Source: Candidatus Methylopumilus rimovensis (GTDB lineage Bacteria; Pseudomonadota; Gammaproteobacteria; Burkholderiales; Methylophilaceae). Taken from it: DNA of 64,000 bases. Location: NCBI RefSeq assembly GCF_006364615.1, contig NZ_CP040986.1, positions 372,001 to 436,000 on the forward strand, written 5' to 3'. The notes under the pieces are model-generated. The model was given only the letters and a program-made list of their open reading frames with translations, was not told where the DNA came from and did not search any database. The stretch's first letter is position 1, and each line of letters opens with the position of its first letter. Positions 30,146 to 50,551 of this stretch are shown one piece after another. A program made the position numbers and the translations under genes.

Positions 30146-30179
30146 AGTGTATGAGCTAATTGTGACAGATATATGACAG
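30146..30179 (-). promoter_or_regulatory. Pho box and -10 of the pst operon
   Basis: On the minus strand TGTCAT (30173-30178) and TGTCAC (30162-30167) stand 11 bases apart, a full match to the PhoB site. Ten bases further lies TACACT (30146-30151) as -10. This predicts induction of pstS on phosphate starvation. Confidence 0.88.
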
Positions 30180-32864: not shown

Positions 32865-33221
32865 TAGATTCAAAGTTTACGAGAAATTTTTTTAGATCAT
32901 CTCTAATCACTCAACATTTTTTTCTAGAAAAGTATTTGTTTCTTTAATCTTGATTGAAGATCGAGGGCATTCAAAGAAGAGTTTGCCCGCTCACTGGCGA
33001 GATAGAGACAGTGGAAGTTATATGCGTTGTCGTCTTATTTAAGCCTCTTAAATTTAAGTTACATTCGATTAAAATTATTTTCATCCAAAAAAACTCAATC
33101 ATATTTTGTTCTCATACAGATTTCATTATCCTTAATAGCTTTAAATAGGTTTGAAAGGCAGCTGTTGTTTTTTTACAACAATTAAACATTTTTTTTAAAA
33201 AAATGACTTGTAATAATTCTT
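32865..33221. other. Gene-free stretch between lysS and the porin promoter
   Basis: AT-rich DNA with no convincing coding region. A 64-codon open frame at 32954-33148 begins with TTG, lacks a ribosome site and resembles nothing I know. A weak hairpin (TGTTGT, T-run, ACAACA, about 33163-33181) may end lysS transcription. The downstream end is taken up by the porin Pho box. Confidence 0.5.
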
Positions 33222-33254
33222 TGTCATATAAGTGTCATATTGCCCCTGTAGTGT
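33222..33254 (+). promoter_or_regulatory. Pho box and -10 of the phosphate porin gene
   Basis: TGTCAT (33222-33227) and TGTCAT (33233-33238) are 11 bases apart, followed after 10 bases by TAGTGT (33249-33254). The design is identical to the pstS promoter. The predicted leader is about 58 bases and carries AAGGGG just before the porin ATG. Confidence 0.85.
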
Positions 33255-43364: not shown

Positions 43365-44108
43365 TTATGACAATGAGTGCTGATGCCAGTCGACAAGTTT
43401 TAACTTTCCTTTCTTAGTTTCTACAAGCGCTGTCAGACTCTCTACCCAATCGCCATCGTTGTAATAATCAATACCTTTAATTTTTTTAATGGCTGCTTTA
43501 TGGATATGTCCGCATATCACGCCATCGCATTTTTTTCTTTTGGCTTCAGCTGCCATGAGTTTTTCAAAATTCTCAACATACTTCACGACATTCTTAATTG
43601 AGTTCTTGATGGATAAAGAGAGCGACCAGTAATGAAATCCGTATTTGTGTCTCAAGGTATTAGAGAAATTATTAATTCTCAAGATGATGTAATAGAGGGT
43701 ATCGCCCACAAATGAAAGCCATTTAGCGCATGAGATGATGTTGTCAAAAAGATCGCCATGGGTCACCCACAATCTTTTACCATGCAATGTTGTATGGATA
43801 AGGTCATTTTTGATTTCAATATCACCGAAAGTCATATTAATAAATTGGCGACCCAACTCATCATGATTGCCTGGTATATAGATGACCTTAGAACCGTTTC
43901 TTGCTTTACGTAATAGCTTTTGAATCACGTCATTATGTTTTTGTGGCCAGTACCAGCGTTTTTTGAGCGCCCATCCATCAATGATATCGCCCACCAAGTA
44001 AATCGTTTCAGCAGTATTATTTTTAAGAAAGTCGAGAAGGTATTCGGCCTTACATTCGGCAGTACCTAGGTGAACATCAGAAATCCAAATTGCCCGATAT
44101 CTTTTCAT
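43365..44108 (-). CDS. PlcP-like metallophosphoesterase (phospholipase C type)
   Basis: A 247-residue calcineurin-like phosphoesterase with all metal motifs: SDVHLG, VGDIIDGW, PGNHDE, THGDLFD and CGHIHKA. Proteins of this type (ISDVHLGT..., GW.LKK.WYWPQ.HNDV.QKLLRKAR) are often labelled UDP-2,3-diacylglucosamine hydrolase, but characterised members such as Sinorhizobium PlcP cleave membrane phospholipids to diacylglycerol under phosphate starvation. Two facts favour PlcP over LpxH: a Pho box ending 8 bases before the start codon, and the adjacent acyltransferase, PAP2 and lipid glycosyltransferase genes. It is divergent from plsC across 87 bases. Confidence 0.78.
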   Translation of the reverse strand: MKRYRAIWISDVHLGTAECKAEYLLDFLKNNTAETIYLVGDIIDGWALKKRWYWPQKHNDVIQKLLRKARNGSKVIYIPGNHDELGRQFINMTFGDIEIKNDLIHTTLHGKRLWVTHGDLFDNIISCAKWLSFVGDTLYYIILRINNFSNTLRHKYGFHYWSLSLSIKNSIKNVVKYVENFEKLMAAEAKRKKCDGVICGHIHKAAIKKIKGIDYYNDGDWVESLTALVETKKGKLKLVDWHQHSLS

Positions 44109-44116
44109 ATGTGACC

Positions 44117-44149
44117 ATTAAATATGACAAGTATGAAAGTTTCGTGACA
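44117..44149 (-). promoter_or_regulatory. Pho box and -10 of plcP
   Basis: On the minus strand TGTCAC (44144-44149) and TTTCAT (44133-44138) are 11 bases apart; 10 bases later comes TTTAAT (44117-44122). The plcP ATG is only 8 bases beyond, so the mRNA would have almost no leader. Confidence 0.75.
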
Positions 44150-44155
44150 AAACAG

Positions 44156-44188
44156 TGTCACAAATATGACACAGAAGATCATTAACAT
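44156..44188 (+). promoter_or_regulatory. Pho box and -10 of plsC
   Basis: TGTCAC (44156-44161) and TGACAC (44167-44172) are 11 bases apart; a further TGACAA lies 11 bases upstream (44145-44150). TAACAT (44183-44188) follows after 10 bases and the ATG at 44196 after 7 more. The spacing is the same as in plcP, which shows that the plsC start is 44196 and not the ATG at 44166 inside the box. Confidence 0.65.
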
Positions 44189-44195
44189 GTGTGAC

Positions 44196-44915
44196 ATGAA
44201 AACCTTAAAGGTACTTTTACACATATTATTGGTCATACCTCTATGTCTATTAATCCTTATCTCACCAAAGTCGCAACAAGAGAAAATTATTCAATTTTGG
44301 TGTAAAAAACTTTTGTCTATTTTTGAGATTAAGGTTGTTCTAAAAGGTGAAGAAGTATTTCTCTTTAATCAAAAAAAATATCTACTCGTGTCTAACCATA
44401 TTTCATGGCTTGATATCATCGTCATTCAATCCATTAAGCCATCTATTTTTGTAGCGAAGTCCGATGTAGCTTCGTGGCCTCTTTTTGGCTGGGTAGCTCA
44501 TATGACAGGGACAATATTTATTAAGCGCGATAAGGTGTCGGATATAAAAAAAGCTTTAAAGAAGATAAAGCGACGTTTAATCAAACGATCTGTGTGTATA
44601 TTTCCAGAAGGTACTTCTACCAATGGTCGATATGTCTTACCCTTTAAGAGTAATTTATTTCAATCTTCGATTGATTCTAATAGAGCGATTCTCCCTATAT
44701 GCTTGCTGTATAAAGATGACAGCGCTTACACAGACAAGGTTGCATTTGTGGGTGATATGTCGCTTGTCGATTCAATCATGAAGATTAAAAAAGAGAAACG
44801 TATTAAAGCTGTCGTCGATGTCTTGCAGCCTATCAAACCTCGAGGCAATAGAAAGGAACTTGCAAGCTATACCTATGAAATGATTCAAAAAAACTTATCT
44901 CAAAATTTGTCATAA
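44196..44915 (+). CDS. 1-acyl-glycerol-3-phosphate / lyso-ornithine-lipid acyltransferase (PlsC/OlsA-like)
   Basis: A 239-residue membrane acyltransferase. An N-terminal hydrophobic helix (VLLHILLVIPLCLLILI) is followed by the catalytic HxxxxD box SNHISWLDI near residue 67, IFVAKSDVASWPLFGW, the FIKRD block, the substrate motif IFPEGTSTNG and PICLLYKD. PlsC enzymes make phosphatidate; the OlsA subgroup completes ornithine lipids and has the same motifs, with SWLDI and FVAKSEVA-type segments. An OlsB-like gene stands nearby under phosphate control, which favours an OlsA-like role, but both activities are possible. Its 3-prime end contains the Pho box of the PAP2 gene. Confidence 0.8.
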   Translation: MKTLKVLLHILLVIPLCLLILISPKSQQEKIIQFWCKKLLSIFEIKVVLKGEEVFLFNQKKYLLVSNHISWLDIIVIQSIKPSIFVAKSDVASWPLFGWVAHMTGTIFIKRDKVSDIKKALKKIKRRLIKRSVCIFPEGTSTNGRYVLPFKSNLFQSSIDSNRAILPICLLYKDDSAYTDKVAFVGDMSLVDSIMKIKKEKRIKAVVDVLQPIKPRGNRKELASYTYEMIQKNLSQNLS

Positions 44916-44940
44916 AACTTTCACAATTTGATATTAACCT
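44908..44940 (+). promoter_or_regulatory. Pho box upstream of PAP2-agt
   Basis: TGTCAT (44908-44913) and TTTCAC (44919-44924) are 11 bases apart, and TAACCT (44935-44940) follows after 10. The box overlaps the plsC stop codon. It would drive PAP2 and the glycosyltransferase in addition to readthrough from plsC. Confidence 0.6.
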
Positions 44941-44969
44941 TACCGCAATATCTATTATGGATAAATGCT

Positions 44970-45506
44970 ATGCCAAATAAACTCAAGTTGTACATGAACC
45001 AGCTTCATCATGTCGATAGTCATTTATGCATTACATTTAATAAAACCAGCCATAACATTCTCATCCGAAATTTCTTTAAGGGCATTAGTCGTCTAGGTGA
45101 TGGTGTATTTTGGTATAGCTTCATGGCACTTATGTTATGTTTAGATCAGGCTCGCGCATTATTGCCTGTATGTCATATGGTAGCTGCTGGATTGATTGGC
45201 ACATTAATTTATAAGTGGCTCAAGGTCAGAACACTTCGTCCACGCCCATTCAATGTATACCAGCAAATTTCATTAAGAAGCATACCCCTAGATCAATTTA
45301 GCTTTCCATCCGGACACACATTACATGCGGTCATATTCTCAATGGTAGCTATCCATTATTATCCTATGTTAGCGACTGCATTAATCCCATTCACGATTTT
45401 AATTGGATTATCTAGACCTATTTTAGGACTTCATTATCCAAGTGATGTTTTAGTGGGTGGTTTAATAGGCATGCTTATTTCAATCATTTCTTTTTATATT
45501 ATCTAA
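44970..45506 (+). CDS. PAP2-family membrane phosphatase
   Basis: A 178-residue integral membrane phosphatase with the three PAP2 motifs: KVRTLRPRP, FPSGHTLH and SRPILGLHYPSD. Four or five hydrophobic segments are visible. Members dephosphorylate phosphatidate, phosphatidylglycerophosphate or undecaprenyl pyrophosphate. Between an acyltransferase and a diacylglycerol glycosyltransferase, a phosphatidate phosphatase giving diacylglycerol is the natural guess. I start at ATG 44970; a TTG at 44928 precedes the -10, and ATG 44994 is an alternative. The stop is immediately followed by the glycosyltransferase ATG. Confidence 0.82.
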   Translation: MPNKLKLYMNQLHHVDSHLCITFNKTSHNILIRNFFKGISRLGDGVFWYSFMALMLCLDQARALLPVCHMVAAGLIGTLIYKWLKVRTLRPRPFNVYQQISLRSIPLDQFSFPSGHTLHAVIFSMVAIHYYPMLATALIPFTILIGLSRPILGLHYPSDVLVGGLIGMLISIISFYII

Positions 45507-46718
45507 ATGAATATACTTTTTATATCTGATGTTTTTTTTCCTCGTGTGAACGGGGTCTCTACATCCATTAATACTTTTGCAAATGAGCTTAAAGCACTTG
45601 GCCACCAAGTAACTTTAATCGCACCTTCTTATGGAGATGACGATAAACATGCAGACTGGATTATAAGAGTGCCTTCTCATAAGATTTATTTCGATCCTGA
45701 AGATCGCTTAATGAATTTTGGTAAATTGAAAGCATTATTACCATGGGTTGAAGAAGGACATTTTGATGTAATACATATTCATACACCATTTACAGCTCAT
45801 TACGTGGGTATTGATTTTGGAAAAAAATTAGATATCCCAGTGGTTGAAACTTACCACACATTCTTTGAGGATTATTTACATCATTATTTACCCTTTATCC
45901 CACAATTTATTTCTAGAAAGCTTGCAAGAACAATATCGAGAAGACAATGTAATGCAGTTGATGGCATTATTTCGCCATCAAAACCCATGTTGGATGTATT
46001 AAAAGCATATGGTATTAAGACATCTGCAGAAGTGGTGGCTACAGGTTTAGATGAGTCAAGTTTTGCTAAGGTCGATGGAGAGTCTTTCCGGATCAGTCAT
46101 GACATTCCATTAGCACAACCGATGCTTTTATTTGTAGGTCGCGTAGCCCATGAAAAAAATATTGAGTTCTTACTTGAAATGCATGGGGAATTAATTCAAA
46201 AGTATCCTGATGCATTATTGGTGATTACAGGTGAGGGTCCAGCAGAAGAATCTATTAAGGCATCTATCGCGAGATTAGGTCTCGTGAATAAAGTAAAGAT
46301 GATTGGATATTTAGACCGCAGCCATGAGCTTATTGCCTGTTACAAGGCGGCTGATGTATTTGTCTTTGCATCTAAGAGTGAGACTCAAGGTTTGGTGCTT
46401 TTAGAGGCTATGGCTCAAGGAACACCTGTCGTTGCATTAGCAGAGCTTGGAACTAAATCAATACTTATCGAAGGCGAGGGAACGTTAATCGCAAAAGACG
46501 ATATCTATGATTTTGCAGATAAAGTGAGCATGCTTTTATCTGACCCCTCAAAACGTAGAAGTATTGGAAAAAAGGGTAGGCAATACGCAGGAGAAAAATG
46601 GGGCGCTAATGTCTTAGCTAAAAAAGTGGCTAAATTCTATAAGAGTGTCATCGCACAAAAAATATCACTCACAAGATATACCAATACTAGAATTGGCAAT
46701 GCAAAAGGTACAGCCTAG
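45507..46718 (+). CDS. GT4 glycosyltransferase, diacylglycerol glycosyltransferase-like (Agt type)
   Basis: A 403-residue GT-B enzyme. The N-terminus MNILFISDVFFPRVNGVSTSI and the segments HIHTPF and ETYHTFFEDYLHHY match bacterial 1,2-diacylglycerol 3-alpha-glucosyltransferases. The nucleotide-sugar site shows FVGRVAHEKN and the EX7E motif ETQGLVLLE. Such enzymes (Agt in Sinorhizobium and SAR11) use the diacylglycerol released by PlcP to make glycolipids. The start abuts the PAP2 stop, so the two are translated together. The sugar donor cannot be told from sequence. It ends overlapping ppx by 4 bases. Confidence 0.82.
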   Translation: MNILFISDVFFPRVNGVSTSINTFANELKALGHQVTLIAPSYGDDDKHADWIIRVPSHKIYFDPEDRLMNFGKLKALLPWVEEGHFDVIHIHTPFTAHYVGIDFGKKLDIPVVETYHTFFEDYLHHYLPFIPQFISRKLARTISRRQCNAVDGIISPSKPMLDVLKAYGIKTSAEVVATGLDESSFAKVDGESFRISHDIPLAQPMLLFVGRVAHEKNIEFLLEMHGELIQKYPDALLVITGEGPAEESIKASIARLGLVNKVKMIGYLDRSHELIACYKAADVFVFASKSETQGLVLLEAMAQGTPVVALAELGTKSILIEGEGTLIAKDDIYDFADKVSMLLSDPSKRRSIGKKGRQYAGEKWGANVLAKKVAKFYKSVIAQKISLTRYTNTRIGNAKGTA

Positions 46719-48343
46719 AAGAGCTCTATCTCATACTTCCATTCAATTTTTTTCCAGTCGGATGCTTCCTTGTTGAGTCCGAATTGAATGAATGGATTTT
46801 TTTCTAACCAAGCCTTAGAAATCTTTAATTTAAATCCTTTAGGGTTTTGTTCGACTTTGATAAGAGGCAGCGCTGAATTTTCTCTTTTTCTAGAGACGAC
46901 ATGTGCGAGCCTTAAGCAGAATAACAAGTGCCAATCAATATACCCAGGGCTGATAGGAAGTTTATTGAGTTTACCGTTATGCCCTAATACAAGCCCTGCA
47001 AGTCTTGCCTGATCAAGTCTTGAAAATCCTGGCAAATCAGCATTAGAAATAATGTAAGCAGAATGTTTTTGGTAATCAGCGCGTGATACAGCTAAACCAA
47101 TTTCATTTAGGAATGATGCCCAAGTTAGAAGCTTGCGATTATTTTTTCTATCTTCTTTTTTAAAGGTAGGTAATTGATCTAGAAAAAAATCAGCCATTTG
47201 ACTCACCCGTTTAAATTGTGCTTCGTCTACATTAAAACGTTTGCCTAATTGCTCGATAAGATCATATCTCGTATCGATATTTTCTTGCTTACCAATCGCA
47301 TTAAAGAGTGTTTTAAGAATACCCTTTTTCTTCGTATTGGCACCATGCTTGGATTGATTATGGAGATGATGGAGAGAGCCAAAAAGAAGGGCAGCTTCCG
47401 TAATTTCCATATGCTCAATGCCTAACTCTTCAAAGGCTGCGATCATGATAGCAAGGCCTCCGGGTAATACAGGCTTTCGATCCGCTTTTAAACCTAATAA
47501 GCTTAATCGTTCGATATGTTTTGTTTCAAGTAAGTTTTTTTTAAGTAACTCTAAGCCATGACGTGTGATAATCCCGCCTGTTTCTTCAACAGGAAGATTG
47601 TGCGGTTCACCACTTAATCCATTGAGTGCAATAAGTTCTGCAATAGCTCTGGCTGTTCCCGAGGAGCCTATCGCTTGTTCCCAACCCATTTTCCGATAGA
47701 AAGGTGCGATCGCTTTAATTTCTTTTAAAGCAGCATTCTGAGCAGCTTTGAAATTCTCTTCATCGATGATACCTTCAGAAAAAAATCTTTGGCTAAAAGA
47801 AACGCACCCTATAGGAAGGGACTCCAAAAGCTTCGGCTCATGGCCATCACCGATTATGATTTCAGTTGAGCCGCCGCCAATATCAAATACAAGCCTTTTG
47901 CCGACACACATGGGCGCGATATATGAGGCTCCAATGTAGATAAGCCTAGCTTCTTCATTGCCTGAGATGACATCAATCGGAAAGCCTAAAAGCTTTTCTG
48001 CTTCATCAATAAATTTTTTAGCATTTCGAGCGACACGAAAGGTATTCGTAGCCACGGCAACGACTTGATTTGGGCTAAAGCTTCTTAATCGGTCGCCAAA
48101 TCTTAAAATAGCTGCAAGCGCTTTCGTTGTTGACTCTTCACTTAATTCATTATCTTGATTAAGTCCTCCAGCAAGTCTGACGGTATCCCTTAAGGTGTCG
48201 ATGGTTTGAAATTGAATACCGGTAGCTAGATAATTGACTTTTGCAATCATCATTCTAAAGCTGTTAGAGCCCAGGTCTATCGAGGCGTATAAACCATTGA
48301 GATTTTCGGGAGATTGGACTGTTTTGCGAGAGGGTATCATCAT
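46715..48343 (-). CDS. ppx: Exopolyphosphatase (Ppx/GppA family)
   Basis: Releases phosphate from the ends of polyphosphate chains or, as GppA, hydrolyses pppGpp. It has 542 residues: an actin-like ATPase domain with YASIDLGSNSFRMMIA, the catalytic-Glu region NEEARLIYIGA, and VFDIGGGSTEIIIG; the C-terminal half (from about 315) is an HD-like helical domain. Pairing with ppk across a divergent promoter with two Pho boxes favours Ppx. Two consecutive ATGs (48343, 48340) lie 10 bases after the -10, so a very short leader is expected. Confidence 0.92.
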   Translation of the reverse strand: MMIPSRKTVQSPENLNGLYASIDLGSNSFRMMIAKVNYLATGIQFQTIDTLRDTVRLAGGLNQDNELSEESTTKALAAILRFGDRLRSFSPNQVVAVATNTFRVARNAKKFIDEAEKLLGFPIDVISGNEEARLIYIGASYIAPMCVGKRLVFDIGGGSTEIIIGDGHEPKLLESLPIGCVSFSQRFFSEGIIDEENFKAAQNAALKEIKAIAPFYRKMGWEQAIGSSGTARAIAELIALNGLSGEPHNLPVEETGGIITRHGLELLKKNLLETKHIERLSLLGLKADRKPVLPGGLAIMIAAFEELGIEHMEITEAALLFGSLHHLHNQSKHGANTKKKGILKTLFNAIGKQENIDTRYDLIEQLGKRFNVDEAQFKRVSQMADFFLDQLPTFKKEDRKNNRKLLTWASFLNEIGLAVSRADYQKHSAYIISNADLPGFSRLDQARLAGLVLGHNGKLNKLPISPGYIDWHLLFCLRLAHVVSRKRENSALPLIKVEQNPKGFKLKISKAWLEKNPFIQFGLNKEASDWKKIEWKYEIELF

Positions 48344-48353
48344 AAAGGACGCT

Positions 48354-48386
48354 AATTTAAATCAAATTTGTGACATATCTATGACA
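48354..48386 (-). promoter_or_regulatory. Pho box and -10 of ppx
   Basis: On the minus strand TGTCAT (48381-48386) and TGTCAC (48370-48375) are 11 bases apart, followed after 10 bases by TAAATT (48354-48359). Confidence 0.82.
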
Positions 48387-48397
48387 TATCTTACAAA

Positions 48398-48430
48398 TGT
48401 CATGTAAATGTCACATTCTGTAATCACAAT
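48398..48430 (+). promoter_or_regulatory. Pho box and -10 of ppk
   Basis: TGTCAT (48398-48403) and TGTCAC (48409-48414) are 11 bases apart; after 10 bases comes CACAAT (48425-48430). The ppk ATG is 6 bases further, so transcription would start at or within a base or two of it. Confidence 0.8.
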
Positions 48431-48436
48431 GATAGT

Positions 48437-50551
48437 ATGAATGTTGTGAAATCTAAACTTAATTTATTAAATCGTGAATTAGGCGCTCTCGAATTTAACC
48501 GACGTGTCCTTGCCTTAGCGCAAAATCTTAAAATACCTCTTTTAGAGCGCCTTAAGTACATCTGTATTGTTTCAAGTAATTTAGATGAATTTTTTGAAAT
48601 TCGAATCGCAGTGCTTAAGGAGCAGCTAAGAAAAAATCCTAAAAGCAAGACCCAAGATGGGCTCATAGTAGGTGATGCGTATTTAAACATTGTGAAAGAG
48701 ACACAAACGCTTGTTAGCCACAAATACAAAATATTTCAGAAAGATATTTTACCGAGACTTGAGAGAGAAGGAGTTCACCTTCATTTCGAGAGCGCATGGA
48801 CGCCAAGTCAGCATCGTTGGGCAAAAACATATTTTGAAAAAGAACTCGTTCCACTCTTAACTCCGATTGTTTTAGATCCAGCCCACCCATTCCCTAAAGT
48901 CATCAATAAAAGTTTAAACTTTTTTGTAACATTAGAAGGCAAGGATGATTTTGGAAGGACGCCTAAGTTAGCTGTTGTTCAAGCACCTCGTTCTATACCC
49001 CGCGTCATTCAAATGCCGGCTCGTATTAGTCAAAAACCTTATGGCATCGCGATCTTATCGACCTTTATGCAATCTTTCGTGCACGAACTTTTTCCCGGTA
49101 TGAAAATTACAGGATGCTACCAATTTAGAGTGACAAGAAATTCAGATTTATTTGTATCGGATGATGACATCTCTGACTTAAAAGAATCATTAAAAGGTGA
49201 GTTGTCTACAAGACATTTAGGTGATGCAGTAAGACTTGAAATCTCTTCTGATATTCCAGATCACCTTCTTAAGTATTTAAGAAAATCTTGCGATTTGAAT
49301 CCTGAAGATTGTTATCGCGTAGATGGGCCAGTTAACTTAATGCGCTTAATGCAAGTAGCAGAGATTGTGAATAGACCCGACCTGAAATTTCCATCTCATA
49401 TTCCTAAGTTACCTTTAATCAAGGGTTCTATCTTTGATGAACTTAAAACGCGCGATGTTTTACTTCATCATCCTTATGAAAGCTTTGAGCCTGTTTTGAA
49501 TTTGCTCAGAACTGCTTCAAAAGATCCTGATGTATTAGCGATTAAACAAACGATATATAGAACCGGCAATGTATCGCCTGTGATGGACGCTTTAATTGAA
49601 GCTGCTAAGAATGGCAAAGAAGTAACTGTGATTGTGGAGCTCTTAGCGCGTTTTGATGAAGAAACAAATATTTCATGGGCAGCTAAATTAGAAGAGGTCG
49701 GTGCGCATGTTGTTTATGGTGTGGTGAAACATAAATGTCATGCCAAGATGATCATGATTGTAAGAAAAGAGTTATTGCCAGTAAAAGGCAAAAGAAAACC
49801 AGAGCACACTTTAAAACGTTATGTGCACTTAGGGACAGGAAACTATCATCCTAGAACAGCGAAGCTATATACCGATTTCGGGTTGATGACTTCAAACCCA
49901 TCAATTTGTGACGATGTTCATAAGATTTTTATGCAGCTCACAGGAACAAGTCGTTTAATCAAGCTGAAATCATTATGGCACTCGCCCTTTACTATGTTTG
50001 ATCAAATTGTGAAGCATATTCAAGCTGAAGCCAAGGCAGCAAAGTTAGGTAAGCCTGCAAGAATTGTGGTGAAAGTGAATGCACTCCTAGAGCCTGCTGT
50101 GATTAATGAGCTCTACAAAGCCTCGCAAGCAGGTGTCAAAATTGATTTAATTGTAAGAGGGGTGTGCGCACTTAAGCCTAAAGTTAAAGGCCTCTCCGAA
50201 AACATTCGAGTAAGATCTATTGTTGGACAATTTCTAGAGCACCATCGTATTTTTTATTTTTATGCAAACGGTAAAGAAAATGTTTATTTATCCTCTGCAG
50301 ACTGGATGGATAGAAACTTATTTAGAAGAATTGAAGTGGCATTTCCTATTCTAGAGCCTGAATTAAAACAAAAAGTTATTAATGAAGGCTTAAATGAATT
50401 ACTGAAAGACGTTTCTAGCTGGAATATGAATTCAGATGGTCTATATAAACAATCAGCATCTGCATCAAATAATAAATTATCGGGCCAACAGAATTTATTA
50501 CTTAAATATAGTGTAGTTACAAAATCTTCAAAACGAAAACTTAAAGCTTAA
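48437..50551 (+). CDS. ppk: Polyphosphate kinase (Ppk1)
   Basis: Makes polyphosphate from ATP reversibly. It has 704 residues. The N-terminal domain contains LNRELGALEFNRRVL and SSNLDEFFEIR. The catalytic half carries HPYESFEPVLNLLRTAS, the phospho-His in VKHKCHAKMIMI (about 437), RYVHLGTGNYHPRTAKLYTDFG and the second PLD-like His in FLEHHRIFYF. No Shine-Dalgarno precedes the ATG; with a -10 only 6 bases upstream, a leaderless mRNA is likely. The C-terminus has a short Ser/Lys-rich tail. It ends overlapping the fdx stop by 4 bases. Confidence 0.96.
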   Translation: MNVVKSKLNLLNRELGALEFNRRVLALAQNLKIPLLERLKYICIVSSNLDEFFEIRIAVLKEQLRKNPKSKTQDGLIVGDAYLNIVKETQTLVSHKYKIFQKDILPRLEREGVHLHFESAWTPSQHRWAKTYFEKELVPLLTPIVLDPAHPFPKVINKSLNFFVTLEGKDDFGRTPKLAVVQAPRSIPRVIQMPARISQKPYGIAILSTFMQSFVHELFPGMKITGCYQFRVTRNSDLFVSDDDISDLKESLKGELSTRHLGDAVRLEISSDIPDHLLKYLRKSCDLNPEDCYRVDGPVNLMRLMQVAEIVNRPDLKFPSHIPKLPLIKGSIFDELKTRDVLLHHPYESFEPVLNLLRTASKDPDVLAIKQTIYRTGNVSPVMDALIEAAKNGKEVTVIVELLARFDEETNISWAAKLEEVGAHVVYGVVKHKCHAKMIMIVRKELLPVKGKRKPEHTLKRYVHLGTGNYHPRTAKLYTDFGLMTSNPSICDDVHKIFMQLTGTSRLIKLKSLWHSPFTMFDQIVKHIQAEAKAAKLGKPARIVVKVNALLEPAVINELYKASQAGVKIDLIVRGVCALKPKVKGLSENIRVRSIVGQFLEHHRIFYFYANGKENVYLSSADWMDRNLFRRIEVAFPILEPELKQKVINEGLNELLKDVSSWNMNSDGLYKQSASASNNKLSGQQNLLLKYSVVTKSSKRKLKA

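Follow-up and report, generated by a model that had tools for sequence, protein, structure and literature searches.

The window analyzed here, a 64,000-nucleotide stretch (genome positions 372001-436000), belongs to Candidatus Methylopumilus rimovensis, a small freshwater methylotroph whose genome is a single contig of 1.284 Mb with a GC content of 36.7%; genome size and GC content are both in line with published values for the genus (PMC10872708). Within this window lie two divergent gene pairs, plcP-plsC and ppx-ppk, in which all four start codons follow the -10 hexamer of a predicted PhoB-activated promoter by 6 to 10 nt. The products were identified through Pfam as a PlcP-like metallophosphoesterase, a PlsC-like acyltransferase, Ppx and PPK1, as were the PAP2 and GT4 glycosyltransferase genes clustered with plsC. 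The genes and promoter elements are given below in window coordinates, with Pho box scores from a position weight matrix (PWM).

43365-44108, minus strand: coding sequence of the PlcP-like metallophosphoesterase (Pfam PF00149), predicted to be near-leaderless; it has a single possible in-frame start
44117-44122, minus strand: -10 of plcP, TTTAAT, 8 nt from the ATG; the alternative TATTTA overlaps it at 44119-44124
44133-44150, minus strand: Pho box of plcP, TTGTCACGAAACTTTCAT; 16.4 bits, 10 nt from the -10, kept in all genus orthologues
44155-44172, plus strand: Pho box of plsC, GTGTCACAAATATGACAC; 20.0 bits, kept in genus orthologues
44183-44188, plus strand: -10 of plsC, TAACAT, 7 nt from ATG 44196; TAATAT or TATTAT in relatives
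44196-44915, plus strand: coding sequence of the PlsC-like acyltransferase (Pfam PF01553), starting at ATG 44196; variation falls on third positions from codon 2
46715-48343, minus strand: coding sequence of ppx (Pfam PF02541), with a predicted leader of ~4 nt
48354-48359, minus strand: -10 of ppx, TAAATT, 10 nt from the ATG, a distance at which 10/10 orthologues have TAAATT or TAACTT
48370-48387, minus strand: Pho box of ppx, ATGTCATAGATATGTCAC; 22.0 bits, conserved
48397-48414, plus strand: Pho box of ppk, ATGTCATGTAAATGTCAC; 21.5 bits, conserved
48425-48430, plus strand: -10 of ppk, CACAAT, 6 nt from the ATG; CAGAAT in the two most diverged relatives
48431-48436, plus strand: GATAGT, the spacer between the ppk -10 and ATG; invariant in 10/10 orthologues, unlike the other three gaps
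48437-50551, plus strand: coding sequence of ppk (PPK1; Pfam PF02503 and others), predicted to be leaderless

On the gene strand, each box is followed by 10 nt and the -10 hexamer, which is separated from the ATG by ggtcacat in plcP, gtgtgac in plsC, agcgtccttt in ppx and gatagt in ppk. Gaps of 8, 7, 10 and 6 nt, respectively, had been given in a preliminary description of this DNA, and they proved exact when the sequence was read again.

The whole genome was scanned with the Pho-box PWM and then for a -10 hexamer at a spacing of 9-12 nt. Gene sets came from a simple gene caller, and genome-wide counts are approximate for this reason. The best intergenic matches upstream of genes precede pstS, ppx, plsC, ppk, the PAP2 gene, phoB, a porin gene, phoU and plcP. 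The 18-bp box is of the PhoB type, with two direct repeats at an 11-bp period (16.4-22 bits), and its distance to the -10 is exactly 10 nt at nine of nine promoters. This fixed geometry is common to the four near-leaderless promoters and to five leadered ones, in which the start codon follows the -10 by 27 (phoU), about 28-29 (phoB), 29 (PAP2), 42 (pstS) or 65 nt (porin). A PhoB-like response regulator carrying Response_reg and Trans_reg_C domains is encoded at genome positions 1041266-1041952, with its own Pho box in front. When an E. coli-type-only PWM is used, nine promoters with box, 10 nt and -10 are found upstream of transcription-unit starts, compared to a mean of 0.79 and a maximum of 3 in 200 shuffles. 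Three of these promoters lie 6-10 nt from the start versus 0.075 in the same number of shuffles; plsC is missing from this set because the gene caller chose an upstream ATG. A stricter pattern yields 9-18 matches per genus genome (at least 90% complete) versus 2-4 for a reversed control.

Leadered promoters in the window, some with a recognizable Shine-Dalgarno (SD) site, are represented by the following features.

44907-44924, plus strand: Pho box of PAP2, TTGTCATAAAACTTTCAC, which overlaps the stop codon of plsC; 19.8 bits, 10 nt from TAACCT, conserved in the genus
44935-44940, plus strand: -10 of the PAP2 gene, TAACCT, 29 nt from ATG 44970, giving a leader of normal length; gap of 29-33 nt in the genus
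44970-45506, plus strand: coding sequence of the PAP2-family phosphatase (Pfam PF01569), a lipid gene with a leader
30162-30179, minus strand: Pho box of pstS, CTGTCATATATCTGTCAC; gap 42 nt, SD GGAG; leadered comparison
33221-33238, plus strand: Pho box of the gene for the phosphate-selective porin (Porin_O_P), with a 65-nt gap and the SD AAGGGG; also a leadered comparison

The PAP2 box was absent from the preliminary description. Because its promoter is internal, at the end of plsC (44907-44970), the plsC-PAP2-GT4 cluster has two Pho promoters. The reverse complement of the plsC box may also act as an upstream box for plcP. Adjoining plcP is a GNAT-type acetyltransferase gene (PF13444, 42498-43289, minus strand) that has the SD sequence AAGGA and no Pho box seen upstream; its family takes in ornithine-lipid (OlsB-like) enzymes.

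At sigma-70 promoters, transcription standardly begins seven nt after the hexamer. Placing +1 by this spacing predicts leaders of 0-4 nt, in agreement with a genome-wide -10 peak at 6 nt described below. The predicted leaders are ~0 nt for ppk, whose 6-nt gap would make the A of the start codon +1, 0-1 nt for plsC, 2-4 nt for plcP and ~4 nt for ppx. We consider it probable that PhoB-activated, sigma-70-type promoters give rise to leaderless or near-leaderless mRNAs here, as one case of a wider minority class in the genome and not as a functional code. PhoB, whose use is suggested by the motif, would activate these promoters via the Pho boxes, probably when cells are starved of phosphate, RNA polymerase would start 0-5 nt before the AUG, and ribosomes would then enter directly at the 5′-proximal AUG without SD pairing. 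Direct binding of this kind is a known route for leaderless mRNAs (PMC9031893). Parts of the family appear to have retained the layout at ppk and plcP, and in the genus it seems to have been compacted into two divergent pairs.

Leaders of 0-5 nt are the best prediction because the layout is conserved while the gap sequence drifts and the start codons are fixed. Close relatives belong to Ca. Methylopumilus and related Methylophilaceae (one relative found through plcP is Ca. M. universalis MMS-RIV-52), and the genus set comprises 10 orthologues for each of the four genes. Among them the gaps are 7-8 nt for plcP, 6-7 nt for plsC, 10 nt for ppx and 6 nt for ppk, and the start codon is ATG in 10/10 orthologues of each gene, GTG being an option only in the alternative for ppk considered below. 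Gap sequences of plsC are unrelated between species (gtgtgac, ctcttcc, agcctc, aggacc, atggca), yet length and -10 position hold. For plcP, the gap sequence is largely variable while its length and the -10 position are kept; TATTTAAT at the -10 is invariant and the bases that follow vary. No SD was seen in the plcP and plsC gaps of these orthologues. Leadered promoters likewise stay leadered in the genus, with gaps of ~42 nt for pstS, ~64 nt for the porin gene, ~28 nt for phoB and 29-33 nt for PAP2 (the values for phoB and three of those for pstS in relatives were read by eye). The leaderless or near-leaderless transcripts posited in the preliminary description are thus the best reading of the promoter anatomy, backed across the genus by conserved gap lengths and start codons and by the consistent lack of an SD.

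We also considered whether translation begins further downstream. plcP is without another in-frame start near its N-terminus (MKRYRAIWISDV, the same in 10 orthologues). The only possible starts of ppx are ATG 48343 and the next codon, which is missing as a start in most relatives, and those of ppk are ATG 48437 and GTG 48446. Upstream ATGs of plsC lie inside the Pho box (44166) and across the -10 (44187), and ATG 44196 is the one common to all relatives. Variable columns in codons 2-20 fall on positions 1, 2 and 3 in the numbers 2/0/15 for plcP, 9/5/18 for plsC, 3/2/11 for ppk and 9/9/17 for ppx. Reading from the assigned starts is therefore well supported, most clearly for plcP, in which 15 of 17 variable columns are third positions. 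The ppx N-terminus is the start least supported by codon variation, and there the limits of the open reading frame (ORF) decide. Downstream starts, which would have undone the original proposal, are thus disfavored by ORF limits and third-position variation, with GTG 48446 left as a rival for ppk.

The 16S rRNA retains an intact anti-SD at its 3′ end (GGATCACCTCCTTT). Duplex energies with this sequence are +0.4 to +0.6 kcal/mol for plsC, ppx and ppk, confirming the earlier observation that these genes lack an SD. The value for plcP is -2.2 kcal/mol, which is about the genome median, and most of the bases involved precede the point where transcription is predicted to start. Energies of -5.8 kcal/mol for pstS and -8.1 kcal/mol for the porin gene agree with the normal leaders and ribosome sites ascribed to them.

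Near-leaderless promoters are found elsewhere in this genome. We searched upstream of 493 transcription-unit starts for hexamers that differ from TATAAT at no more than one position, with A2 and T6 required, and took the mean per position at 10-24 nt as the expectation. A hexamer lies exactly 6 nt before the start in 18 cases versus 5.5 expected (Poisson P 2e-5), and this peak is absent upstream of operon-internal genes. Thus, a near-leaderless class exists in the genome, and of the promoters found in excess up to 50 nt from the start, ~18% sit at 5-10 nt. Sites at distances of 5-9 nt are retained within 1 nt in 18 of 21 cases in a related genome (G009). We discarded as evidence the peak that unrestricted TANNNT shows at 6 nt, since it also appears at operon-internal genes and probably arises from SD-like strings such as TAAGGT.

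Some candidates for further Pho promoters were rejected. An arsC-like gene on the minus strand (genome 1222250 region, gap 6) was tried as a tenth member of the regulon and left out because its Pho box is not kept in G009, though its TATAAT is. At this gene (genome 1221.7-1222.3 kb) the TATAAT lies 6 nt before the ATG, and the best-scoring start of the gene caller is wrong. Box-like matches inside coding sequence (for example at genome positions 99329 and 378287) recur in relatives and were taken as coding conservation.

Several observations weigh against leaderless or near-leaderless transcripts. The -10 hexamers of plcP (TTTAAT) and ppk (CACAAT) are imperfect, and the latter is a poor -10 identified through its spacing from the Pho box; that of plcP is also ambiguous, being either TTTAAT at 8 nt or TATTTA at 10 nt. 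The GATAGT of ppk is invariant, whereas a plain spacer should vary. Retention in G009 of TATAAT at 5-9 nt is not clearly above that at other distances. A four-nucleotide SD match occurs in 43.5% of genes across the whole genome versus 21% in shuffles, such that SD absence is common here and by itself is weak evidence. Transcription starts and PhoB binding are predicted from sequence motifs. Finally, a larger distance between the 5′ end and the AUG lowers leaderless initiation in some bacteria (PMC9031893). For this reason ppx and plcP may be weaker cases, and a ppx leader of 4-5 nt may not be leaderless in behavior in such bacteria.

The strongest rival accepts the same transcripts and differs on the reason for the layout, holding that genome compaction produced the short gaps incidentally and that the leaderless state itself has no role. 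We rate this at somewhat less than an even chance. Each divergent pair packs two Pho promoters into 87-93 bp, with the start codons squeezed against the -10, and the division between short and long gaps follows gene layout exactly: four of four near-leaderless genes are in Pho-Pho divergent pairs versus none of the five leadered genes (Fisher P 0.008). Divergent pairs are short in this genome, with a median spacing of 110 bp and 62/148 at 95 bp or less. Start codons are at most 60 bp apart in 34/148, and overlapping or very short promoters must therefore be common. However, short gaps are also found at ppk and plcP in larger genomes of the Methylophilaceae in which these genes have no divergent partner, so that compaction in divergent pairs contributes in the genus yet is insufficient as the whole cause.

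This conclusion comes from loci outside the genus. At 14/22 family loci examined, ppk (~55% identity) is preceded by the box, 10 nt and -10, and its first in-frame start, TTG in most cases, comes 10-16 nt later. In these relatives ppk and ppx are convergent, and a yggX-like co-oriented gene lies upstream of ppk in the two loci checked (~70 nt away in L195). The plcP gap is 6 nt in G064 (ATG), G035 (ATG) and G074 (GTG) and 15-30 nt in other Methylophilaceae; the G035 genome is 3.2 Mb, and a dgkA-like co-oriented gene lies upstream. Outside the family (Alphaproteobacteria, most other families), plcP has no proximal Pho box and for this reason provides no test.

Two further features were seen in relatives. 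A conserved GAGG/AGGG-TTTTAA-TTG lies between the Pho -10 and the ppk TTG at L195, L196, L205-L208, L211 and L213. The GAGG, 7-8 nt before the TTG in several loci, is SD-like and well spaced, yet it comes immediately after the predicted -10 and should be missing from the Pho transcript. This suggests a second promoter or a near-leaderless UUG start. Upstream of plcP in L184, L187, L217, L218 and L219 (OM43-type, including strain KB13), a 7-codon ORF begins at the ATG placed 7 nt beyond the -10, for example ATG AAA TTT GTA ACA ATA AAA TGA, and its TGA overlaps the plcP ATG as ATGA. Judged from this arrangement, it is possibly a leaderless upstream ORF coupled to plcP; two related genomes, G029 and G063, lack it.

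A second rival is that an upstream or constitutive promoter makes leadered mRNAs, with the near-leaderless Pho transcripts a minor form. A sigma-70-like TTTAGA-17-TATCAT, which also counts against short leaders, lies upstream of ppx in the ppk start region, a stretch invariant in the genus, and additional half-sites occur upstream of plcP. Nonetheless, the TTTAGA match is at chance frequency, promoter-like matches are just as numerous as shuffles predict, and plsC, ppx and ppk have no SD to serve a longer leader, which makes this explanation unlikely.

For ppk alone, the start could be GTG 48446, transcribed from a possible second, extended -10 (TGA-TAGTAT, 48433-48438) that overlaps the listed ATG and is predicted to leave the mRNA leaderless from the GTG. 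All 10 orthologues carry AATGATAGTATGAAT and the GTG codon unchanged, while codon 3 varies among V, A and T. We regard this start as doubtful, as TAGTAT is 18 nt, not 10, from the Pho box and, in E. coli, leaderless initiation at GTG is usually poor (PMC9031893).

The preliminary description had also drawn a functional division, with leaderless lipid and polyphosphate genes set against leadered transporter genes. It does not hold as stated, because the PAP2 lipid gene is leadered, as are phoB and phoU, and near-leaderless starts also occur outside the Pho regulon. A purposeful form of this split, in which storage and lipid-remodelling genes are leaderless for preferential translation when phosphate starvation alters the state of ribosomes or initiation factors, would fit the conservation of the two gap classes (6-10 versus 27-65 nt) in the genus where tested, and leaderless translation in oxidatively stressed E. 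coli reportedly increases along with (p)ppGpp (PMC9031893). It too seems improbable, given PAP2, the near-leaderless promoters at many other genes and the marginal excess of such promoters in the Pho set (4/9) over the genome background (P 0.06). Were the regulon nonetheless divided into two translational classes, with polyphosphate and lipid-remodelling genes read by a leaderless initiation that the condition of ribosomes and initiation factors favors during phosphate starvation, there would be a second, translational layer of phosphate control; we give this the smallest chance of all.

The preferred reading, near-leaderless transcription from PhoB-activated promoters, resembles several known systems. 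The E. coli phoA and pstS promoters share the order of box, 10 nt and -10. The 18-bp box of two direct repeats followed at 10 nt by the -10 is the same as in E. coli-type PhoB promoters (reviewed in PMC4415409), but here four start codons follow the -10 by 6-10 nt instead of a leader with an SD. TA-led leaderless genes, found in 9/71 beta-proteobacterial genomes at ~6.8% of genes on average (Zheng et al. 2011; PMC3160421), likewise have a -10-like signal ~10 bp before the start codon and no SD. Unlike in those genes, the -10 here is tied to a Pho box at fixed spacing, and the ppx and plcP leaders may be 2-5 nt. PlcP lipid-remodelling clusters also place plcP near lipid and glycosyltransferase genes with predicted Pho boxes, whereas here plcP is divergent from plsC-PAP2-GT4; the distance from promoter to start was not seen reported as a feature in that study (PMC4796936). 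For leaderless mRNAs at proteobacterial Pho promoters, we found no paper joining both subjects.

Prediction of leaderless genes usually relies on a -10 signal alone, whose position is uncertain. In this regulon the -10 is pinned down by the Pho box, and the nine promoters therefore form an internally controlled set: with the same activator and geometry, four leave no room for a ribosome site and five have normal leaders. A cultivable, streamlined freshwater bacterium would thus offer a clean natural test of leaderless versus SD-led translation when phosphate, and hence ribosomes, are scarce.

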